DNA of 42,010 nt from an uncultured Acidobacteriota bacterium (GTDB taxonomy: Bacteria > Acidobacteriota > Thermoanaerobaculia > UBA5066), in NCBI GenBank assembly GCA_937888435.1, contig CALAQS010000326.1, positions 1 to 42,010 on the forward strand, read 5' to 3'. The notes below the pieces were generated by a model. The model had not been told where the DNA came from. It made no database searches and was given only the letters and a program-made list of their open reading frames with translations. The translations under genes and the position numbers were made by a program. Below are positions 4,203 through 15,031 of this stretch, in pieces. Each line of letters begins with the position of its first letter. Within the stretch, counting starts at the first letter, position 1.

Positions 4203-4247
4203 ATTTACGGGCCGCCTGGTTGCCGGATGCTCAGGCTGGAGGCAGCC

Positions 4248-5858
4248 GTGTTCGGCATCCCATTCCACCGGCATCTCGGGTTCAAGCTGACGGCGGCCGC
4301 GGCGGCGGTCTCGCTCGCGACGATTTCGCTATTTGCGTTCCTGTCGATCCGCGCGCAGCGCGCGCATCTCATCAGCGAGGTCGTCCGGGGCGCCGCGCTG
4401 TTTTCGAGCACGATCGCAACAAGCACGCGGGATCTCATGCTCGAGGACCAGCGGCACGGCGCCTACCGGATCATGGAAAGCATCGGGCGCCTCGAGGGCA
4501 TCGAGAAGGTCCGCGTTCTCAACAAAGAGGGCCGCGTCATGTTCTCGACGGATGCGCGCGACATCGGCGGCTCCGTCGACAAGGACGCGGAGGCCTGCAC
4601 CGCGTGTCACGCGGCGGGCCAGCCGCTCGTGGCGCCCACGACGTCCGCACGCAGCCGACTCTTTACGTCGAACGGCCACCGCGTGCTCGGGATGGTGACG
4701 CCAATCTACAACGAACCCGCCTGCGCGACGGCCTCGTGCCACGCGCATCCCCCGGAAAGGCACGTCCTGGGAGTCGTGGACATCGGCATCTCGCTCAAGG
4801 ACATCGACGCGAGCCTGCACACCCAATCCCTGCGGATGGCGGGCGGAGCCCTTCTCGCCGTGATCGCTCTCGCCGCGCTCGTCAACGGCGTCGCACGGCG
4901 CATCGTCTTCCGCCCCGTGGCCGAGCTCGTGGAGGCCACCCAGCGGGTCGGCCACGGCGACTTGTCGGCCACGCTCCCGGTCCGCTCGTCGGACGAGCTC
5001 GGAATCCTCGCGAACTCGTTCAACGAGATGAACGTGTCGCTCGCGAAGACGCGCCGCGAGCTCGAGAACCTCACGGACGACCTCGAGCACCAGGTCGAGG
5101 ACCGCACGGCGGCGCTCAAGAGCGCGCAGGAGGTCCTCGCGCGGAGCGAAAAGCTCGCCTCGCTTGGCCAGCTCTCGGCGTCCATCGCGCACGAGATCAA
5201 CAATCCTCTCGCCGGCATCCTGACATTCGCGCGCCTCATGACGCGCATGCTCGAGGCCGGGCCGCCGGACGAGGCCACCCGCACGGCCTGCCTGAAGAAC
5301 CTGTCCCTCGTCCAGCGCGAGACCGAGCGCTGCACGGTCATCGTGCGCAACCTCCTCGATTTCGCCCGCGCACGCCCTCTCGACCTGCGCATCTTCGACC
5401 CGATGCGCGCGCTCGACGAAGCCCTCTCGCTCGCGCAGCACAAGATGCAGCTCCAGGGCATCACGGTCGTGAGGAAGCTCGAGGGCACGGGCGCCGTGAA
5501 CGCCGACTTTGGACAGCTCCGGCAGGCGTTCATGAACATCCTGCTCAACGCATGCGACGCGATGCCCTCAGGCGGCACGCTGACGCTCGCCGTTCACTTC
5601 TTCTCCGGCAGTCGCGACGTCGAAATCTCCGTCGCCGACACGGGCACCGGGATCGCGCCCGAGCTTCTCTCGCGGATCTTCGACCCCTTCTTCACGACGA
5701 AGGAGAAGGGGACGGGCCTCGGCCTGTCCGTCGTCTACGGCATCGTCGAGAAGCACGGCGGCTCGATGCGGGTGGAGAGCCGCGTCGGACAGGGAACGAC
5801 GATGACGATCCGCCTCCCGCTCGCCGAGGACGGCGTGGCGCGCGCCGCGGCGACGTGA
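4248..5858 (+). CDS. Membrane sensor histidine kinase with periplasmic c-type haem motifs
   Basis: I chose GTG at 4248 because GGAGG sits 5 bases before it; the in-frame ATG at 4227 has no such site. This gives 536 residues. TM1 is at about 16-34, a periplasmic domain at 35-193 and TM2 at 196-216, followed by HAMP (about 217-275), a coiled coil, HisKA with ASIAHEINNPLAG (phospho-acceptor His near 315) and HATPase_c with NILLNACDAM, DTGTGIAPEL and GTGLGLS. The periplasmic domain carries CTACH (117-121) and CATASCH (159-165, a CX4CH variant), so it probably binds one or two covalent c-type haems and senses redox state or a haem ligand. Such haem-PAS kinases and chemoreceptors are known in Geobacter and relatives. 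The stop overlaps the next gene's GTG (GTGA). Likely partner: the NtrC-type regulator at 6402. Confidence 0.9.
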   Translation: MFGIPFHRHLGFKLTAAAAAVSLATISLFAFLSIRAQRAHLISEVVRGAALFSSTIATSTRDLMLEDQRHGAYRIMESIGRLEGIEKVRVLNKEGRVMFSTDARDIGGSVDKDAEACTACHAAGQPLVAPTTSARSRLFTSNGHRVLGMVTPIYNEPACATASCHAHPPERHVLGVVDIGISLKDIDASLHTQSLRMAGGALLAVIALAALVNGVARRIVFRPVAELVEATQRVGHGDLSATLPVRSSDELGILANSFNEMNVSLAKTRRELENLTDDLEHQVEDRTAALKSAQEVLARSEKLASLGQLSASIAHEINNPLAGILTFARLMTRMLEAGPPDEATRTACLKNLSLVQRETERCTVIVRNLLDFARARPLDLRIFDPMRALDEALSLAQHKMQLQGITVVRKLEGTGAVNADFGQLRQAFMNILLNACDAMPSGGTLTLAVHFFSGSRDVEISVADTGTGIAPELLSRIFDPFFTTKEKGTGLGLSVVYGIVEKHGGSMRVESRVGQGTTMTIRLPLAEDGVARAAAT

Positions 5859-6401
5859 GCGAGGTTGCCCTCTGGTGGATCGGAACGGGCGACGCCGACA
5901 ACGGGCTGCTGGAAAGTGTGCGCACGCACGTGGAGCGGGTGTTTCGCGCTGCGGCCCGGCTCGAGCTCGCGGGCTCGAGGCCGGACGACGCGTTCGACGT
6001 GCGTCGCAACCAGCACTCCTCGCATCGCACGCTCCTGTGGCTCGCGTCGCGGCGGCCGCAGCGGGCCGCGCGCATCCTCGGCCTGACGGACGCGGACCTC
6101 TTCATCCCGGTCCTGACGTTCGTCTTCGGCGAGGCGCAGCTCAAGGGCCGTGCAGCCGTCGTGTCCACGGCCCGCCTGACCGGCGCGGGGCTCCCGGGCG
6201 AGTCCGCCCGGCTCGGGGTGCGTCTCAGGACCGAAGCGGTCCACGAGCTCGGGCATACGTTCGGGCTCCTACACTGCCGCGAGTCCCGCTGCGCGATGGC
6301 GCGCTCCTCGACTTTGAAAGATGTGGACTCCAAGCTGCCGGACCTCTGCGAGACGTGCCGGGCCCTCTTCCTCGAAAACGCCGACGAGATCGGAGACTTT
6401 C

Positions 6402-7781
<1,380 letters not shown>

Positions 7782-7797
7782 GAAAGACAACGCCCCG

Positions 7798-7899
7798 TTG
7801 AATAGCTCAACATCTATCGGCGTGCGGACGACAGCTCGTCGAGCGGCACAAACCCTTTCCTGACAAGCACCTGACACCTCATCCGGCCACCCTGCCGGA
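7798..7899 (+). promoter_or_regulatory. Candidate enhancer region of the sigma-54 promoter, with several short repeats
   Basis: Between the regulator gene and the sigma-54 promoter there are four symmetric or repeated elements: GTTGA-N5-TCAAC (about 7798-7812), GCTCG-T-CGAGC (7834-7844), a direct repeat CTGACA-N5-CTGACA with an 11-base period (7860-7876), and TCCGG-N8-CCGGA (7882-7899). The first two lie 70-120 bases before the -12 element, where bacterial enhancer-binding proteins usually bind. Which one is the true site is unknown. Confidence 0.4.
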
Positions 7900-7901
7900 G
7901 G

Positions 7902-7917
7902 TGGCTCGCTCCTTGCG
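7902..7917 (+). promoter_or_regulatory. Sigma-54 (-24/-12) promoter of the redox operon
   Basis: TGGCTCGCTCCTTGCG matches the consensus TGGCACG-N4-TTGCW at all invariant positions: GG of the -24 element, GC of the -12 element and the 10-base gap between them. It deviates only at base 5 (T for A) and base 16. The start site is expected near 7927-7928. It follows directly after a gene for a sigma-54 activator and precedes seven genes in one direction. Confidence 0.8.
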
Positions 7918-7934: not shown

Positions 7935-8174
7935 ATGAGAGAAGCCCAGAACACCTGCCCGCTACTCAAGGAAGTCGTGATGCTTTATTGCGACGCCTGC
8001 CCGACGAAAAAAATGCTGCCCCTCGACCACCTCGTATCGGCCCGGCCCTGCCAGGCGATGCGGTACGTGGACTGCCCCCTGTATCAGGAGGCCGTGAGGC
8101 GGCTCGGGACGGACGTCGCGTACGCGGAGTCGCCCGCCGTGGCGGCGGAAGGCTCCCGGAGGGAGGTCCCATGA
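7935..8174 (+). CDS. Small Cys-rich protein, first gene of the sigma-54 operon
   Basis: From ATG 7935 it has 79 residues. Cysteines occur as CPLL, YCDAC (CxxC), RPCQ and DCPLY. With its conserved-looking Lys/Pro segment (PTKKMLPLDHL) this suggests a small metal- or FeS-binding or redox-active cytoplasmic protein; no signal peptide is visible. The start is uncertain. ATG 7935 would lie only about 8 bases after the predicted sigma-54 start site. GTG 7920 lies upstream of that site. ATG 7980 has AAGGAAG 6 bases before it but would drop the first Cys-Pro motif. The stop overlaps the next small gene as ATGA. I do not recognise a named family. Confidence 0.65.
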   Translation: MREAQNTCPLLKEVVMLYCDACPTKKMLPLDHLVSARPCQAMRYVDCPLYQEAVRRLGTDVAYAESPAVAAEGSRREVP

Positions 8175-8269: not shown

Positions 8270-9181
8270 ATGAACCTGAATCGCCGCACTCTCTTCAAGC
8301 TCGCAGCAGCGGCCGGCACCGCAGGGGTGGTCGGGGCGGCCGCGAAGTCGCGCGCTTCGGTCGTGCCTGCGGCGCGCAACGCCCGCGGCGTTCTCGTGGA
8401 CACGACACGCTGTGTCGGCTGCCGCGCCTGCGAGGCGGCCTGCGCGGAGGCAAACGCCCTCGCCGGCCCCGAAAAGCCCGGCGACGACACCGTGTTCGCG
8501 TCGAAGCGCTCGACGAGCCCGACGGCCTACACCGTCGTCCAGAAAGGCTCCTTGAAGAGCCCCGCCGGCGAGGACCGCTTCGCCAAGACTCAGTGCATGC
8601 ACTGCGTTCAGCCGGCCTGCGCCTCCGGCTGCGTCGTCAAGGCACTCGAGAAAACCGCGTCCGGGCCGGTCGTCTACCACAAGGACCGCTGCCTCGGCTG
8701 CCGCTACTGCATGATCGCGTGCCCCTTTGGCGTCCCGAAGTACGAATTTTCGAGTGCGACGCCGCTCGTCAAGAAGTGCACGTTCTGCGCGGAGCGCCAG
8801 GCGAAGGGCCTCGTGCCCGCGTGCACGGAGGTCTGCCCGTCGGGCGCGCTCCAGTTCGGCGCGCGCGCCGACCTCCTCGAAGAGGCCAAGGAGCGCATCT
8901 ACCAGAACCCGGAAAAGTACGTCCACAAGGTCTACGGCGAGGACGAAGCGGGCGGCACGAGCTGGCTCTACATCTCCGACGTGCCGTTCGAGTCCCTGAA
9001 GCTTCCCGCCGGCATCGAGAAGAAGTCCTACCCCGAGCTCGCCGACGGCGCGCTTTCGGCCGTGCCCTTCGTCATCACGCTCTGGCCGCCGCTCCTCATG
9101 GGCATGTACACCTTCAGCAAGCGTCGCGACGAGGTCGCGGCGAAAGAGAACGATGGAAGGCAGGAGGAACGCCATGTCTGA
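8270..9181 (+). CDS. Tat-exported four-cluster ferredoxin subunit (HybA/PsrB/DsrO-like)
   Basis: 303 residues. The N-terminus has a twin-arginine signal (NRRTLFK, residues 4-10) followed by an Ala/Gly-rich hydrophobic stretch, so it is exported folded. Four Cys groups follow: CVGCRACEAAC, CMHCVQPACASGC, CLGCRYCMIAC, and CTFC with CTEVC. This is the layout of the electron-transfer subunit in hydrogenase-2, polysulfide reductase and Dsr complexes, expected to hold four [4Fe-4S] clusters. A hydrophobic stretch near residues 262-282 (VPFVITLWPPLLMGMY) could anchor it in the membrane, as in HybA. It ends 8 bases inside the NrfD/HybB gene. Role: passing electrons between the NrfD-type quinone subunit and a periplasmic partner, here most likely the triheme cytochrome. 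No molybdopterin or [NiFe] catalytic subunit is present in the operon. Confidence 0.9.
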   Translation: MNLNRRTLFKLAAAAGTAGVVGAAAKSRASVVPAARNARGVLVDTTRCVGCRACEAACAEANALAGPEKPGDDTVFASKRSTSPTAYTVVQKGSLKSPAGEDRFAKTQCMHCVQPACASGCVVKALEKTASGPVVYHKDRCLGCRYCMIACPFGVPKYEFSSATPLVKKCTFCAERQAKGLVPACTEVCPSGALQFGARADLLEEAKERIYQNPEKYVHKVYGEDEAGGTSWLYISDVPFESLKLPAGIEKKSYPELADGALSAVPFVITLWPPLLMGMYTFSKRRDEVAAKENDGRQEERHV

Positions 9182-10403
9182 GCACGCTCTGAAACCCGCG
9201 CTCTTCGGCGGGCCCTGGATGAGGGAAAACCTCTTCCTCGGGATGCCGTTCCGCGCGTATCTCAAGAGCCTCGTGACACCGGCCAACGCGATCGCGGCGG
9301 CGATTCTCCTCGCGGGCCTCCCCACGATCGCGTACCGGTTCTGGAGGGGGCTCGGCGCTGCGACGAACCTGTCGCAGACGAACCCGTGGGGCATCTGGGT
9401 CGCCTTCGACGTCGTGTGCGGCGTCGCGCTCGCGGCGGGCGGCTACACGGTCGCCTGCGCGGTCTACATCTTCGGCCAGAAAGAGCTGCGGCCGATCCTC
9501 CGCCCCGCGATCCTGACCGGGTTTCTCGGGTACGCGCTCGTCCTCTTCGGGCTCGTCGTGGACCTCGGCCAGCCGTGGCGGCTGCCTTACCAGTTCTTCC
9601 TGACTCCCGGCACGACAGCCGTCATGTACGAGGTCGGCTGGTGCGTCTTTCTATATCTGATGGTGCTCGGGCTCGAGTTCGCGCCCGCCGCGCTCGAGTG
9701 GCTCGGCCTCGTCAAGCTGCGCCGGCTCCTCGGGTCGCTGACGATCGGCATCATCGTCATCGGCGTCACGCTCTCGACGCTCCACCAGTCCTCGCTCGGC
9801 GCCTTCTTCCTCATGACGCCGGGCAAGCTGCACCCGCTCTGGTACTCGCCGTTCCTGCCGATTTTCTTCTTCGTGTCGAGTCTCGCGGCGGGCATCGGCA
9901 TGGTGGTCGTGGAGAGCGCGCTTTCCCACCGCGCGTTCCACGACCGGCTCGACCCGGCCGCCTCCGTGGATCTCGACCGCATCACGCTCTCCCTCGCCAA
10001 GGGCGGCGCGATCGTCCTTTTCGCGTACTTCTTCATCCGGCTGCAGGGTCTCGTTTCGAGCGGCCGCTTCGACCTCCTCGCGACCGGCTGGGGCGCCTGG
10101 TATCTCTTCGAGATGCTCGGCTTCATCCTCCTGCCGTCGTTCGTGTTCGCCTTCGCAGCGCGGCGAAAGAGCGCGAGGCTGGCCCGGATCGCCGGCGTCC
10201 TCACGGTTCTCGGCGTGATCCTCAACCGCTTTAACGTCTCGCTCATCGCCTTCAACTGGAACGTCCCGGACCGCTACGTCCCGAGCGCCGGCGAGGTCAT
10301 CACGTCACTCACGATCGTGACGATCGGCGTCCTGATCTTCCGCTGGATCGTGAATCGCATGCCGGTGGTGAACGAGCACCCCGACTGGCGCGGCGCCCAC
10401 TGA
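9174..10403 (+). CDS. hybB-like: NrfD/HybB-type quinone-interacting membrane subunit
   Basis: ATG 9174 is preceded by AGGAGGAA and overlaps the end of the ferredoxin gene by 8 bases; 409 residues. About ten TM helices. Features of the HybB branch are visible: NPWGIWVAFDVVCGVALAAGG in the early helices, DLGQPWRLPYQF, and a late RFNVSLIAF loop. Proteins of this family exchange electrons between menaquinol or ubiquinone and the ferredoxin subunit and carry no haem of their own. Tight coupling to the four-cluster protein implies a two-subunit module as in Hyb, Qrc, Act or Cbc complexes. Confidence 0.92.
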   Translation: MSEHALKPALFGGPWMRENLFLGMPFRAYLKSLVTPANAIAAAILLAGLPTIAYRFWRGLGAATNLSQTNPWGIWVAFDVVCGVALAAGGYTVACAVYIFGQKELRPILRPAILTGFLGYALVLFGLVVDLGQPWRLPYQFFLTPGTTAVMYEVGWCVFLYLMVLGLEFAPAALEWLGLVKLRRLLGSLTIGIIVIGVTLSTLHQSSLGAFFLMTPGKLHPLWYSPFLPIFFFVSSLAAGIGMVVVESALSHRAFHDRLDPAASVDLDRITLSLAKGGAIVLFAYFFIRLQGLVSSGRFDLLATGWGAWYLFEMLGFILLPSFVFAFAARRKSARLARIAGVLTVLGVILNRFNVSLIAFNWNVPDRYVPSAGEVITSLTIVTIGVLIFRWIVNRMPVVNEHPDWRGAH

Positions 10404-10420: not shown

Positions 10421-11089
10421 ATGAACGAATACCAGCTCCTCAACCCGTACACGGCGAAGGCCCTGGAATACGCCCTCGCGATCTCATACCTCCTCCTCTT
10501 CATCCCCTTCTGGCGCTTCGTCCAGGGGGAGGCGGTTCCGGCGCACGCCCTCGGCTTCGGCTGGTTCCAGGTTCCGAACGGCGTCCATCTGCACGCCGGC
10601 CACGCCTGGGCGCGCCCGGAGGGCGGCGCCGTGGAGGTCGGCCTCGACGACTTCGCCCACAAGCTCGTGGGCCCGCTCGAGACGGTGCGTTTTCCCGAGA
10701 TCGGCGCGCCGGTGAGGCAGGGCCAGAAGGCCTTCACGATCGTGGCCGGCGGCCAGCCGCTCGACGTGCTCTCGCCGGTCGACGGCCACGTCATCGCGTT
10801 GAACGAAGCCGTTCGCGCGCATCCGGCCGACGCGCTGCGCGACCCATACGGTGCCGGCTGGCTCATGAAGGTCGAGCCGCGCTGGCTGACCGGCAACCTC
10901 AAGAACCTCTTCTCGGGCGACGCGGCCCGCCGGTTCCTCGACGCCGCGGCGGGGAAGCTCGCCCAACGCCTCACGCCGCAACTCGGCGTCGTATTGCAGG
11001 ACGGCGGAACGCCGGTGCACGGCATCGCGCGAGCTCTCGACGAGGACCACTGGGACGAGCTGGCCCGGCGGTTCCTCGAGGGAAAGTGA
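10421..11089 (+). CDS. Membrane-anchored GcvH-like protein without the lipoyl lysine (1)
   Basis: 222 residues with SD GAGAGGGAG before ATG 10421. One TM at about 14-34 is followed by a GcvH-like fold: LHAGHAWARPEGGAVEVGLDDFA corresponds to the start of glycine-cleavage H protein, and DVLSPVDGHVIALN to its lipoyl hairpin. In true H protein the hairpin contains the lipoylated Lys eight residues before the Pro of xPV. Here that position is Gly in AGGQPLDVLSPV, with no Lys nearby, so lipoylation is not expected. No glycine-cleavage gene is near. The protein is probably a structural or assembly part of the respiratory module; topology (soluble part in cytoplasm or periplasm) is undecided. A second copy is encoded two genes downstream. 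Confidence 0.75.
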   Translation: MNEYQLLNPYTAKALEYALAISYLLLFIPFWRFVQGEAVPAHALGFGWFQVPNGVHLHAGHAWARPEGGAVEVGLDDFAHKLVGPLETVRFPEIGAPVRQGQKAFTIVAGGQPLDVLSPVDGHVIALNEAVRAHPADALRDPYGAGWLMKVEPRWLTGNLKNLFSGDAARRFLDAAAGKLAQRLTPQLGVVLQDGGTPVHGIARALDEDHWDELARRFLEGK

Positions 11090-11099
11090 GGCGGCCGTC

Positions 11100-11450
11100 A
11101 TGAGGCATCTCCGACTCTTCGCCATCCTTCTGACGCTCGGGTTGACCGGGGCGGTTCTCCCGGCCAGCCTCCCGCGCCTGCCGAACGACCGCGCTCTCCC
11201 ACAGGGAACGGAGAGCCCGGGCGTCGTGACGTTCCGCCACTCGTCGCACGTCGACCAAGCGAAGCCCGACTGCACGACCTGCCACCCGGCGCTGTTCCCG
11301 ATCCTCCCCCGTTCCGAGGCCCAGGCGGGCCCCCGACTCCTGCACAAGGACATGGAAAAGGGCGTCGCCTGCGGCAAGTGCCACGACGGCAAGAGCGCGC
11401 ATGGATTCGACGATTGCGCCACGTGCCACGTCGTTCCGAAAGAGAGGTGA
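11100..11450 (+). CDS. Triheme c7-type cytochrome, periplasmic
   Basis: 116 residues with an N-terminal signal sequence or anchor (hydrophobic residues 5-22). Three CxxCH motifs occur: CTTCH (58-62), CGKCH (91-95) and CATCH (106-110). Extra His at 47, 50, 82 and 101 can act as sixth ligands, so bis-His low-potential haems are expected. Motif spacing and size fit the cytochrome c3/c7 class (PF14522-like). It probably accepts electrons from the ferredoxin subunit, or donates to it, in the periplasm. It lies 10 bases after the first GcvH-like gene and 5 bases before the second. Confidence 0.9.
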   Translation: MRHLRLFAILLTLGLTGAVLPASLPRLPNDRALPQGTESPGVVTFRHSSHVDQAKPDCTTCHPALFPILPRSEAQAGPRLLHKDMEKGVACGKCHDGKSAHGFDDCATCHVVPKER

Positions 11451-11455
11451 GCATC

Positions 11456-12166
11456 ATGGAAGCTCTCTTGATGTTTTTGCAGGGAGCCATCATCTTCGTG
11501 GCGGGTCTCCTCATCCGCCTTTTGCTTCTCATCGCCTTCGTCGCCGTCGCCCTCGTGCCCATCCTCGCGGGGTGGGGTCTCTATCGCCTGGCTGAGTCGG
11601 CGATCCGACGGCTCAGGGCACGCCGACTCGGCCTCGTGGAAGTCGACGGCCTGGTTCTCGCCGAGCGCCGCCGTTACACGCCCGCCCACGCGTGGCTGGA
11701 AGAGACCGGCGGCCGCCTGCGCGTGGGTCTCGACGGTCTCGCCGGACACCTCCTTCACGGCGTCACCGCCATCCAGCTTCCGCAGCCGGGCAGCATGCTG
11801 GCCGCAGGGCGCGCGGCCGTGACGGTCGCGTGCGGCGCGCGGACGGCGATCATCCCCTCACCCGTGACGGGCACGGTGGTGGCCGTGAACAGCGCCGTCT
11901 CGCGCCACCCGTCCCTCGTGCTCTCCTCGCCTTACGGGAGAGGCTGGCTCTTCTCGGTGCGGCCGGCCTCGGACACGTACCGCAGCTTCCCGACGGGCGC
12001 GGTGGCGCGCGCCTGGTTCCACGCCGATGAGACGCGGCTCGCGCATTTCCTCGAAGGCGAGCTCGGCCTCGCGGCGGCGGACGGCGGCGAGCTCGTCCTG
12101 CCTCCCCCGGCCCTGCTATCCGAAGATCAGTGGCACCGCGCCGTGTCCTCCTTCCTCGAGTCCTGA
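11456..12166 (+). CDS. Membrane-anchored GcvH-like protein without the lipoyl lysine (2)
   Basis: ATG 11456 with GAGAGG upstream; 236 residues. The N-terminus is strongly hydrophobic (about residues 3-47), enough for two TM helices or a re-entrant hairpin. A GcvH-like domain follows: YTPAHAWLEETGGRLRVGLD, then IIPSPVTGTVVAVN as the lipoyl hairpin. The Lys position is occupied by Ala, in the stretch CGARTAIIPSPV, so it cannot be lipoylated in the usual way. It is a diverged paralogue of the protein at 10421. It is the last gene of the sigma-54 operon, 23 bases before the terminator stem. Function inferred only from context: scaffold or maturation partner of the ferredoxin/NrfD/cytochrome complex. 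Confidence 0.75.
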   Translation: MEALLMFLQGAIIFVAGLLIRLLLLIAFVAVALVPILAGWGLYRLAESAIRRLRARRLGLVEVDGLVLAERRRYTPAHAWLEETGGRLRVGLDGLAGHLLHGVTAIQLPQPGSMLAAGRAAVTVACGARTAIIPSPVTGTVVAVNSAVSRHPSLVLSSPYGRGWLFSVRPASDTYRSFPTGAVARAWFHADETRLAHFLEGELGLAAADGGELVLPPPALLSEDQWHRAVSSFLES

Positions 12167-12257: not shown

Positions 12258-13142
12258 ATGCGCCGATCCACCCTCGTCCTCGCGCTCGTCCTTTTCGCGG
12301 GTTGCGGCAAGAATCCCGCCGCTCCTGCTGCCCGCGTGGCGGGCCCCGACTCTCCCGCTCACGGGGCCGCGCTCGAAGCTTCGGCTCCGGCCGCCGTCAT
12401 CCCCCAAGCGCCTCAGCCCGCTCTCGCTACCGTGTCGGGAGTCGTCGAGGAGACGCTTGACGCCTCCGACTACACGTATATGCGGCTGAAGACCGACGGC
12501 AGTGAGATCTGGGCCGCCGTCACGAAGACGTCCGTGAAGAAGGGCGACCGGGTCACCGTCGCGAACGCGATGTCGATGGACGGCTTCGAGAGCAAGACGC
12601 TGAACCGGAAATTCGAGCACATCGTCTTCGGCAACCTCGGCGGCGGAACGGCCGGCGCTCTGTCGGCTGGCGCGCCCCCCGCGCCGGTCTCGGCGCACGG
12701 CTCCGCGTCCGAAGCCCAGCCGCGCTCCCAAATGGCCGCGCAGCACGCGGCGGTGGCGGGCGGCCCGGCGGATGCCGGTGACGTCGTGGTCGCGAAGGCC
12801 GAAGGCAAGGACGCGCGCACGGTGGCGCAGATCTTTGCGGAGCGCCTTTCGCTTAAGGACAAGACCGTGTTCGTGCGCGGCAAGGTCGTGAAGGCGAACA
12901 CCTCGATCATGGGCCGGAACTGGATTCACATTCGCGACGGCTCCGGTTCACGTGAAAAGAAGGACGACGACCTGACGGTGACGACTAAAGACGGCGCGGC
13001 CGTCGGCGACATCGTGGTCGCAAAGGGCGTCGTTCATGTCGACCGCGACTTCGGCGCCGGCTACTCGTACCCGGTCGTCCTGGAGGACGCGAAGATCACG
13101 CGCGAGCCGGCCTCGACGCGGGCGGACGCGACGCTAAGGTGA
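12258..13142 (+). CDS. OB-fold lipoprotein, two repeats
   Basis: ATG 12258 has AAGGAGA 8 bases upstream; 294 residues. The N-terminus is a lipoprotein signal (LVLFAGC, Cys near residue 16). An Ala/Pro-rich stretch follows, then two beta-rich units: about 60-125 ([18 protein letters not shown] ... KGDRVTV) and 200-285 ([19 protein letters not shown], then GDIVVAKG). Both look like OB folds of the kind found in NrfJ/YgiW-type or nucleic-acid-binding-domain periplasmic proteins. The linker (130-185) is Ala/Gly/Pro-rich. Its stop overlaps the GTG of the aromatic-biosynthesis fusion gene, but a functional link is not obvious. Ligand unknown. Confidence 0.65.
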
Positions 13143-15031
13143 CGCCGCGCGGGGCGGAGCTCGCGGGCTATCAGGGGCAGCCCGGCTCCTTCTCAGCCCG
13201 CGCGGCGGCGCGTTGCGGGAAGCCGGTGGCCTTCCCCACCTTCGAACGCACGCTGCGCGCGCTCCTCGCCGGAGAGATCGCGTGCGCCGTGCTGCCCGCG
13301 GTCAACCGCGTGGACGGGCCGATCCTCGAGTCCCTGGACGCGCTCGCCCGCTCGCTGGCAGAGCTGGAGTCCGCGATCGCCGTCGAGGCCGAGATCGAAG
13401 TGCCCGTGAGGCTCGTTCTCGCCGCGCCAGAGGGCCTCGCGCTCGAGAGCGTGCGCGAGGTCCATTCCCAGGCCGCGGTGCTCAGGCAGTGCCGCCATCT
13501 CCTCGCGCGCCTCGACGCGATTCCGATCGACACGCACGACACGGCGTACGCGGCGTTTCGCGTGAAGGAGGCGGGAGGGCCTCGGGCAGCCGTCTGCTCG
13601 GAGGAGGCGGCGCTCGAGGCCGGCCTTCTCATTCTCGAGGAAGACGTGTCGGACGTGCGCCCGAACACGACGCGCTTCTGGCGACTGGCCCGCGCCGGGG
13701 CGACCGCGGATGCGGTGCCGGGGGATGACGTCGCGCCCGACTCTTCGGCGCCGCGCGTTGTTTTCTACGCGGGCGTGCGGGCATCGTCGGCCCTCGCGGA
13801 AGCGGGCGCCGAGCTGCTCTCGCTGCCGGGCACACCGGGCGATCCGGTCCGCGGCTTCGCGGTCGTGCCCGAGAAGAACGTCGCGCGCGCGGCGGCGGGT
13901 ACGGGCCGGCCCGCGGCAGGAGAGCGCGTGATCTGGCTCGGGCCCGCCCCGGAGTTCGTGCGTCCACCCCGGATGCGCGACCTCCCGAAGGTGACCCAGG
14001 TGCGCGAGCCGAGCATCGTCGCCGTTGGGCCCTTCGTCGTCGGCGGAGGCCACCGCGCCGTGATTGCGGGGCCGTGCGCGGTCGAATCGCCCGAGCAGGT
14101 CGCGCGGCTCGCGCGCGCCGTGGCGCGCGCCGGCGCGACCGCGCTCCGCGGCGGCGTCTTCAAGCCGCGCACGTCCCCCTATTCGTTCCAGGGGCATGGC
14201 CTCGAAGCTCTCGGCTGGCTGAAGGACGCGGGAGACGCGGCGGGACTCCCGATCGTGACGGAAGTGATGGCGCCCGCGCAGGTCGTCCCGGTGGCCGAGC
14301 GGGTCGACGTGCTGCAGATCGGCGCGCGGAACTGCCAGAACTACGACCTCCTGAAGGAAGCGGGCAGAAGCTCCCGCCCCGTCTTTCTGAAACGCGGGTT
14401 CGGAACGACCGTCGAGGAGTGGCTCTCCTCGGCCGAGTACCTGCTCGACGCGGGCTGCAAGAACGTGATCCTCTGCGAGCGTGGCATCCGCACGTTCGAG
14501 AAGGCGACGCGCGGGACACTCGACCTCGGCGGCCTCCTCGTAGCGCGCAGCCTCACGCATCTCCCGCTCTTCGCGGATCCCTCGCATGCCGCGGGCCGGC
14601 GCGACCTCGTGCCGGGTCTCGCGCGCGCGGCGTGGGGCGCGGGTGTGGACGGACTCATGATCGAGGTCCACGATGCCCCCGAGTCCGCGCTCTCCGACGG
14701 GCCGCAGGCTCTTTTACCCGAGGATCTCGAGGAGCTGCTCGACGAATTCGGCATCCTGCCCGGCGCGAGCGGCTCGGTGGAGAGGATCCGGCGCGCGATC
14801 GACGTCGTGGACGGCGGCATCGCGCGGCTCGCGGCGCAGAGACTCGAGCTGGCGCGGCGCGTGGGCGCCGTCAAGAAGGCCTCCGGCCGCCCGATTCGCG
14901 ACGAGGCGCGCGAGGCGAGCGTGCGTGCGCGTTTCGCCGAGGCGCTCGGAGGAGACACCCTGGGCGCGACGCGGCTCGCGGACACGCTCATAGACCTCGC
15001 TTTGGAGGCGGAGAAGCCCGGCGACGCGTGA
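13139..15031 (+). CDS. Three-domain fusion: prephenate dehydratase - DAHP synthase - chorismate mutase
   Basis: GTG 13139 overlaps the upstream stop; 630 residues. Domain 1 (about 8-185) is prephenate-dehydratase-like: [20 protein letters not shown], then NTTRFW containing the catalytic Thr-Arg-Phe. Its usual PxENS loop reads PAVNR, so the conserved Glu is lost. A linker (190-295) has no clear ACT domain. Domain 2 (about 300-535) is a type I-beta (AroF/KDO8P-like) DAHP synthase: [58 protein letters not shown] and SDGPQ. Expected metal ligands are C313, H483, E509 and D520. Domain 3 (about 545-625) is an AroQ chorismate mutase with [23 protein letters not shown] and [16 protein letters not shown] synthase-chorismate mutase and chorismate mutase-prephenate dehydratase fusions are known; all three in this order is unusual. 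It could couple shikimate-pathway entry to phenylalanine synthesis. Confidence 0.9.

Follow-up and report, generated by a model that had tools for sequence, protein, structure and literature searches.

We report a clade of bacterial proteins that retain the fold of the glycine cleavage H protein (GcvH) without its lipoyl-lysine. These Lys-less GcvH-like proteins apparently constitute a widespread, undescribed bacterial family: we found no description of it in the literature, of which only the open-access part was searched. Two members, GH1 and GH2, are encoded in the window, i.e. the whole 42,010-nucleotide stretch of contig C326 of an uncultured Acidobacteriota bacterium analysed here. The common denominator of most loci of the clade is the combination of a haem-sensing two-component system with a Lys-less GcvH, not one enzyme. 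We favour, at a probability of roughly 0.5, the interpretation that GH1 and GH2 are non-catalytic adaptor or effector proteins through which this two-component system, whose haem binding is inferred from motifs, is connected with a redox complex in the membrane.

GH1 and GH2 are GcvH-fold proteins without the lipoyl-lysine

Both window proteins match the Pfam GCV_H profile (GH1: 63.7 bits, E = 1.9e-17; GH2: 66.8 bits, E = 2.1e-18; cut-off 22.2) and share with GcvH the signature residues HxW, VGxxD, SPVxG and DPYGxGW. Their AlphaFold models have a mean pLDDT of 86.2 (GH1) and 92.9 (GH2): that of GH1 aligns with H-proteins in the PDB with Z of about 18-19, among them 1htp from pea (Z 19.5, rmsd 1.4 Å over 131 residues), and that of GH2 recovers the solved H-protein 1onl with E = 1.1e-11. 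The Foldseek/VIA matches are confined to the H-protein domain; the TM and tail regions were not queried separately. Over 160 residues, tail included, the two proteins share 36% identity.

Counting back from SPV(D/T)G, the position of the lipoyl-lysine is occupied by G111 in GH1 and A128 in GH2. The entire chain of GH2 is devoid of lysine, which excludes its lipoylation; in GH1 the lysine nearest the hairpin, K103, is eight residues off and outside the hairpin tip. The first-pass annotation had already claimed the loss of this lysine in both proteins along with N-terminal TM segments, and the latter are indeed predicted, as a helix at residues 9-34 of GH1 and as one long helix at residues 2-57 of GH2. 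Both ORFs can be taken as real genes, since their dN/dS against close relatives is low (0.10-0.17 for GH1 and about 0.28 for GH2), pointing to purifying selection. Neither is a bona fide H protein: GH1 and GH2 differ from GcvH in the missing lysine, in the TM or Cys-rich N-terminus typical of their clade, in a C-terminal DGG tail and in having no gcvT or gcvP nearby, and they score 57.3 and 54.7 bits against the gcvH equivalog TIGR00527 (NCBIfam), far under its cut-off of 115.85. We rejected GcvH membership on this score and the absent lysine. The genuine gcvT-gcvH-gcvPA cluster of the source genome (3.7 Mb, 99.95% complete) lies on another contig (C222), in keeping with the earlier remark that no glycine-cleavage genes are in the vicinity. 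The close relatives of this genome fall in Acidobacteriota/Thermoanaerobaculia.

The Lys-less clade across bacteria

Relatives came from 80 related contig loci and from whole-genome searches, and 117 of the Lys-less kind were aligned with 83 Lys-type proteins; many of the loci are MAG contigs, and with our home-made gene caller some starts may be missed. The lipoyl column holds Lys in all 83 Lys-type proteins, each with the E-S-x-K context intact, versus five of the 117 in the Lys-less set. These five exceptions (four in a Qrc-linked subgroup and one in L179) have variable tips without E-S-x-K; the remaining 112 lack the lysine altogether. The residue at the hairpin tip is free to vary among the 117 members: G, D, A, E, S, T, H, N, P and others all occur there. 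We rejected a shifted register that would yield a conserved hairpin lysine, since at +1 the members have R in 42/117 and K in 23/117 cases, and the window proteins have Gln and Arg. In a tree built without the Lys column, a single branch (SH-aLRT 96) splits 93 Lys-less from 39 Lys-type rows. As judged from this tree, GH1 and GH2 belong to one clade, apart from all Lys-bearing H-proteins sampled. The initial suggestion that the H-protein fold has been reused as a non-catalytic, non-lipoylated part holds over the aligned relatives and in this tree. The clade is distributed across Acidobacteriota, Myxococcota, Desulfobacterota, Bacteroidota, Planctomycetota and others.

The N-terminus of the Lys-less members is a membrane helix in 73/117, and a Cys-rich module in most others. 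Among the 73 TM-anchored members, K/R residues are commoner after the helix in 69 and rarer in two, an excess which by the charge rule places their C-terminus in the cytoplasm. Hence, the GcvH domain is predicted to face the cytoplasm and should be separated by the membrane from the cytochrome and the Tat-exported FeS protein. At the other end, the C-terminal extension with Asp-Gly-Gly is invariant in the first set (36/36), and is present in 95/117 members overall and in both window proteins; in GH1 the DGG falls in the lowest-confidence part of the cytoplasmic AlphaFold model. Some loci encode more than two members: L017 and L018 (Planctomycetota) have three Lys-less GcvH-like genes per cluster and L163 (from the phylum of Desulfonatronum) has four, some of which possess a metal-site-like start, 'CIWMxAGxxxYKLCDxxxxCxxCxxDxAM', replacing the TM.

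The window operon

On the plus strand of the window, a regulatory trio (kinase, archaemetzincin, sigma54 regulator) is followed by genes for the small Cys-rich, FeS and NrfD proteins, GH1, the c7 cytochrome and GH2 (Table 1). GH1 and GH2 thus flank a cytochrome in a respiratory operon, as had been noticed at the outset. By their profile scores, the FeS and NrfD proteins are close relatives of HmcB and HmcC rather than equivalogs. The promoter TGGCTCGCTCCTTGCG was equalled by none of 200 shuffles of the leader, and the palindrome CAACGCCCCGTTG is inferred to be a candidate binding site of the response regulator.

Table 1. Features of the window around GH1 and GH2
Feature	Coordinates	Strand	Basis and remarks
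Sensor histidine kinase	4227..5858	+	Pfam; two haem-type motifs, CTACH and CATASCH, in sensor region
Archaemetzincin (M54 metalloprotease)	5855..6439	+	NCBIfam NF033823 145.1 bits (cut-off 145); motif HELGHTFGLLHCRESRCAM intact
Sigma54-activating response regulator, REC-AAA+-Fis HTH	6402..7781	+	Pfam
Perfect palindrome CAACGCCCCGTTG	7788..7800	no strand	Alignment; kept in four genomes
Sigma54 -24/-12 promoter TGGCTCGCTCCTTGCG	7902..7917	+	~18 bp 5' of small Cys gene; conserved in L005-L007
Small Cys-rich protein (P0006)	7935..8174	+	Same module fused to Lys-less GcvH in other genomes
Tat-exported multi-[4Fe-4S] protein, HmcB/HybA-like	8270..9181	+	NCBIfam HmcB 351 bits (cut-off 420); Tat motif RRTLFK
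NrfD-family integral membrane protein, HmcC/HybB-like	9174..10403	+	Pfam NrfD 65.4 bits; NCBIfam HmcC 509 bits (cut-off 550)
GH1, TM-anchored Lys-less GcvH-fold protein, 222 aa	10421..11089	+	TM ~9-34, GcvH domain ~49-180, DGG 194-196
Triheme c7-type periplasmic cytochrome, between GH1 and GH2	11100..11450	+	Pfam Cytochrome_C7 49.8 bits; NCBIfam nanowire_3heme 63.5 bits, over cut-off
GH2, TM-anchored Lys-less GcvH-fold protein, 236 aa	11456..12166	+	ATG at 11456; DGG 209-211
Conserved lipoprotein-like gene, 3' of GH2	12258..13142		No Pfam match; also in relatives L005, L006
630-aa ORF	13139..15031		By eye: prephenate-dehydratase-like start, DAHP-synthase-like middle (GPCAVES), chorismate-mutase-like end

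Conserved neighbours, redox partners and promoters

In context loci picked by us from GcvH-like matches, the genes within 9 kb of Lys-less and Lys-type members differ: a sigma54 regulator is present in 35/46 Lys-less versus 2/29 Lys-type loci, a kinase in 30/46 versus 3/29, NrfD in 28/46 versus 0/29 and archaemetzincin in 26/46 versus 0/29. The steadiest partners of the clade are the kinase with two haem motifs (CxxCH and Cx4CH, present across phyla), the sigma54 regulator and archaemetzincin. The redox partner varies by locus: FeS-NrfD with c7 or larger multihaem cytochromes; Qrc, as in the sibling operon L117, where QrcA scores 210.3 bits (cut-off 180) and QrcB, C and D are best matches under cut-off; and, in Desulfobacterota, Hdr-type clusters with HdrB/HdrA/MvhD/MetF-like sequences, which were recognized by eye and not by profile. 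The first-pass annotation had cast the family as part of an NrfD respiratory operon: the NrfD neighbours are real, but the description is too narrow as the clade is also found beside Qrc, Hdr and as orphans.

Sigma54 -24/-12 sites occur 5' of 40/56 loci, with 4.5 expected from shuffles, and these include orphan GcvH-like genes. Lys-less GcvH genes outside the usual operon were seen at L009, L010, L012, L130, L131, L134, L173 and L175; their sigma54 promoters are strong, but their transcription units include no redox complex, and in Anaeromyxobacter oryzae such genes are duplicated. At L133 and L134, a small stand-alone protein corresponding to the 'LEY' helix seen in GH1-type proteins is encoded next to NrfD, and this adjacency suggests that the LEY helix packs on NrfD.

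Fusions to receiver domains

The small Cys protein of the window, P0006, matches the N-termini of fused GcvH proteins at L160 (E = 2e-12) and L117 (E = 8e-6). A second kind of fusion is seen in Bacteroidota only: at L189, L190 and L196, a pair of consecutive genes specifies two proteins that combine a receiver with a GcvH domain, a soluble form of 264-268 aa and a membrane-anchored form of 386-400 aa. In the five such proteins scanned both Pfam domains are above cut-off (Response_reg, E = 1e-21 to 1e-31; GCV_H, E = 1e-12 to 1e-21), and GH1 matches the GcvH part of the L190 fusion with E = 4e-26. The phospho-acceptor Asp and the switch Lys are conserved in 15/15 aligned receivers. Several TM-REC-GcvH proteins have a Lys at the lipoyl column, without the lipoylation context. 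These operons also encode a kinase bearing the two haem motifs described above, an FeS-NrfD pair and a 13-haem cytochrome. The fusions indicate, by domain architecture, that a Lys-less GcvH domain can be the output of a phosphorelay; in the window itself the link between kinase and GcvH is merely operonic.

The link to archaemetzincin

Archaemetzincin is a protease with a range from archaea to mammals; its natural substrate is unknown, it showed no activity on the substrates tested and its biology is little known (PMC3427221). The window enzyme meets the M54 motif HExxHxxGxxHCx4CxM (HELGHTFGLLHCRESRCAM) and the NF033823 cut-off; what sets it apart is its tie to a Lys-less GcvH. This tie extends to whole genomes. 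In the phylum of Desulfonatronum (118 genomes) archaemetzincin is present in 29/30 genomes with a DGG-type GcvH versus 15/88 without (p = 1.8e-15); among relatives of the window genome (61) the figures are 26/26 versus 4/35 (p = 2e-13); and in Bacteroidota it is found in 11/11 DGG genomes versus 0/9 where only the tail-less REC-GcvH type was found. Pooled, 66/67 genomes with DGG-type members have archaemetzincin. Relatedness within the genome sets means that the p-values overstate independence. We assigned DGG status from match ranges reaching the tail, with a subset confirmed on fetched sequences.

At three Hdr-linked loci (L167, L168 and L169) the archaemetzincins lack HExxH and keep CxxC; at L167 and L169 the GcvH-like partners that were called have a TGG tail, not DGG. 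It is possible that archaemetzincin and the GcvH tail degenerated together in these loci. L177 has a TGG tail alongside an intact HExxH.

Comparison with known systems

Other divergent GcvH-like families are GcvH-L/not_gcvH (TIGR03077; S. pyogenes 5a35), which retains the lipoylated lysine, and GcvH_rel_desulf (NF045810). Membership in either was rejected, GH1 and GH2 scoring 29-41 bits against cut-offs of 144-150; NF045810 itself gave no match over cut-off in 18 Desulfobacterota genomes. The window operon shares with the CISM-type complexes HmcBC, HybAB and QrcABCD the layout of FeS protein, NrfD and multihaem cytochrome. To our knowledge, none of these complexes has been described with GcvH-like subunits, and the open-access literature yielded no report of such subunits in them.

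A parallel in context is LbpA of sHdr sulfur oxidation, likewise a GcvH-fold paralogue outside glycine cleavage, often paired and encoded beside electron-transfer genes. The Lys of LbpA is strictly conserved and in most cases accompanied by two conserved Cys (PMC6067878), whereas GH1 and GH2 have no such Lys and possess a membrane anchor. Lacking the Lys, and with FeS, NrfD, c7 and regulators as neighbours instead of an sHdr cluster, they were not assigned to LbpA. Tandem GcvH-likes with the motif ESGKWVGP, in which the Lys is kept, occur at L032-L082 (Actinomycetes, Bacillota, Chloroflexi) and, going by this motif, resemble lipoate carriers of the LbpA type that are not part of glycine cleavage.

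Functional interpretation

In the reading we favour, GH1 and GH2 would each be tethered to the cytoplasmic face of the membrane through the N-terminal helix. The diheme-type kinase, whose haem binding is inferred from motifs only, would sense redox conditions in the periplasm and activate the sigma54 regulator, which would in turn switch on the small Cys protein, FeS, NrfD, GH1, c7 and GH2 via the conserved sigma54 promoter. GH1 and GH2 would then dock from the cytoplasmic side, regulating or stabilizing the HmcBC/HybAB-like FeS-NrfD module with its c7 cytochrome; in Bacteroidota the same domain is fused directly to receivers, so that the link between kinase and GcvH can be post-translational. 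Three features suggest that they dock on the redox complex: the membrane anchor, the position in the operon and the LEY helix encoded on its own. Nevertheless, docking on NrfD and the direction of control remain inferences: there is no direct evidence for contact of GH1 or GH2 with NrfD, or for regulation, and no single target is established, because the clade is also found beside Qrc and Hdr and alone in several genomes.

A less probable but serious alternative is that GH1 and GH2 are structural or assembly subunits of an FeS-NrfD-c7 quinone:cytochrome oxidoreductase, with the two-component genes controlling expression only. In its favour, the genes are interleaved in the FeS-NrfD-c7 operon, an arrangement conserved across phyla, often at two or three GcvH-likes per complex operon, and a separate LEY peptide adjoins NrfD. 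It is harder to reconcile with the REC-GcvH fusions and with family members that are orphans or accompany Qrc, HdrABC and HdrA-MvhD-MetF-like modules. We prefer the adaptor/effector reading because of these fusions, the common two-component link and the hints of docking. Compatible with both is the unlikely, though live, possibility that the DGG-tailed proteins are a substrate or activator of archaemetzincin, the DGG linker being cut or bound so as to release or mature the protein. Its action here is inferred from the near-perfect co-occurrence in DGG genomes (55/56 in two phyla, besides the Bacteroidota contrast), from a DGG that was invariant in the first set in spite of lying in a poorly ordered linker, and from the three HExxH-less enzymes with TGG in both called partners. 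This is correlation only, phylogenetically clustered in Bacteroidota, and archaemetzincin also occurs without a DGG-GcvH in the 15/88 and 4/35 genomes noted above; control read from the tail alone is kept as a mere rival since L177 contradicts a strict rule. That lipoate or another swinging-arm cofactor sits on a different residue is very improbable: the hairpin scaffold is retained and lipoylation does occur in other GcvH paralogues, the LbpA proteins of sulfur oxidation (PMC6067878), but GH2 is lysine-free and the tip is free to vary over 117 members. We give scarcely any credence to decaying GcvH pseudo-copies, a reading which the loss of the modified residue might suggest and which is ruled out by dN/dS (0.10-0.29) and conservation over several phyla, together with the new invariant DGG.

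Beyond the adaptor/effector reading for the window, we offer only as a tentative and rather doubtful generalization that the Lys-less H-fold is a dedicated output or adaptor module of haem-sensing two-component systems, exerting post-translational control of electron-transfer complexes both in the membrane and soluble (FeS-NrfD, Qrc, Hdr), and that archaemetzincin has its missing substrate or partner in the DGG members.

Implications

The textbook cofactor-carrier fold has a large cofactor-free side branch. Its members are probably annotated 'glycine cleavage system protein H' in many genomes of anaerobes and soil bacteria; where so mislabelled, metabolic reconstructions that count them as glycine metabolism would be wrong. 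The receiver fusions suggest a way in which respiratory complexes could be regulated via protein contact, beyond transcription alone. Finally, the tight genome-level link to archaemetzincin provides a concrete candidate partner for this protease, one that is directly testable.
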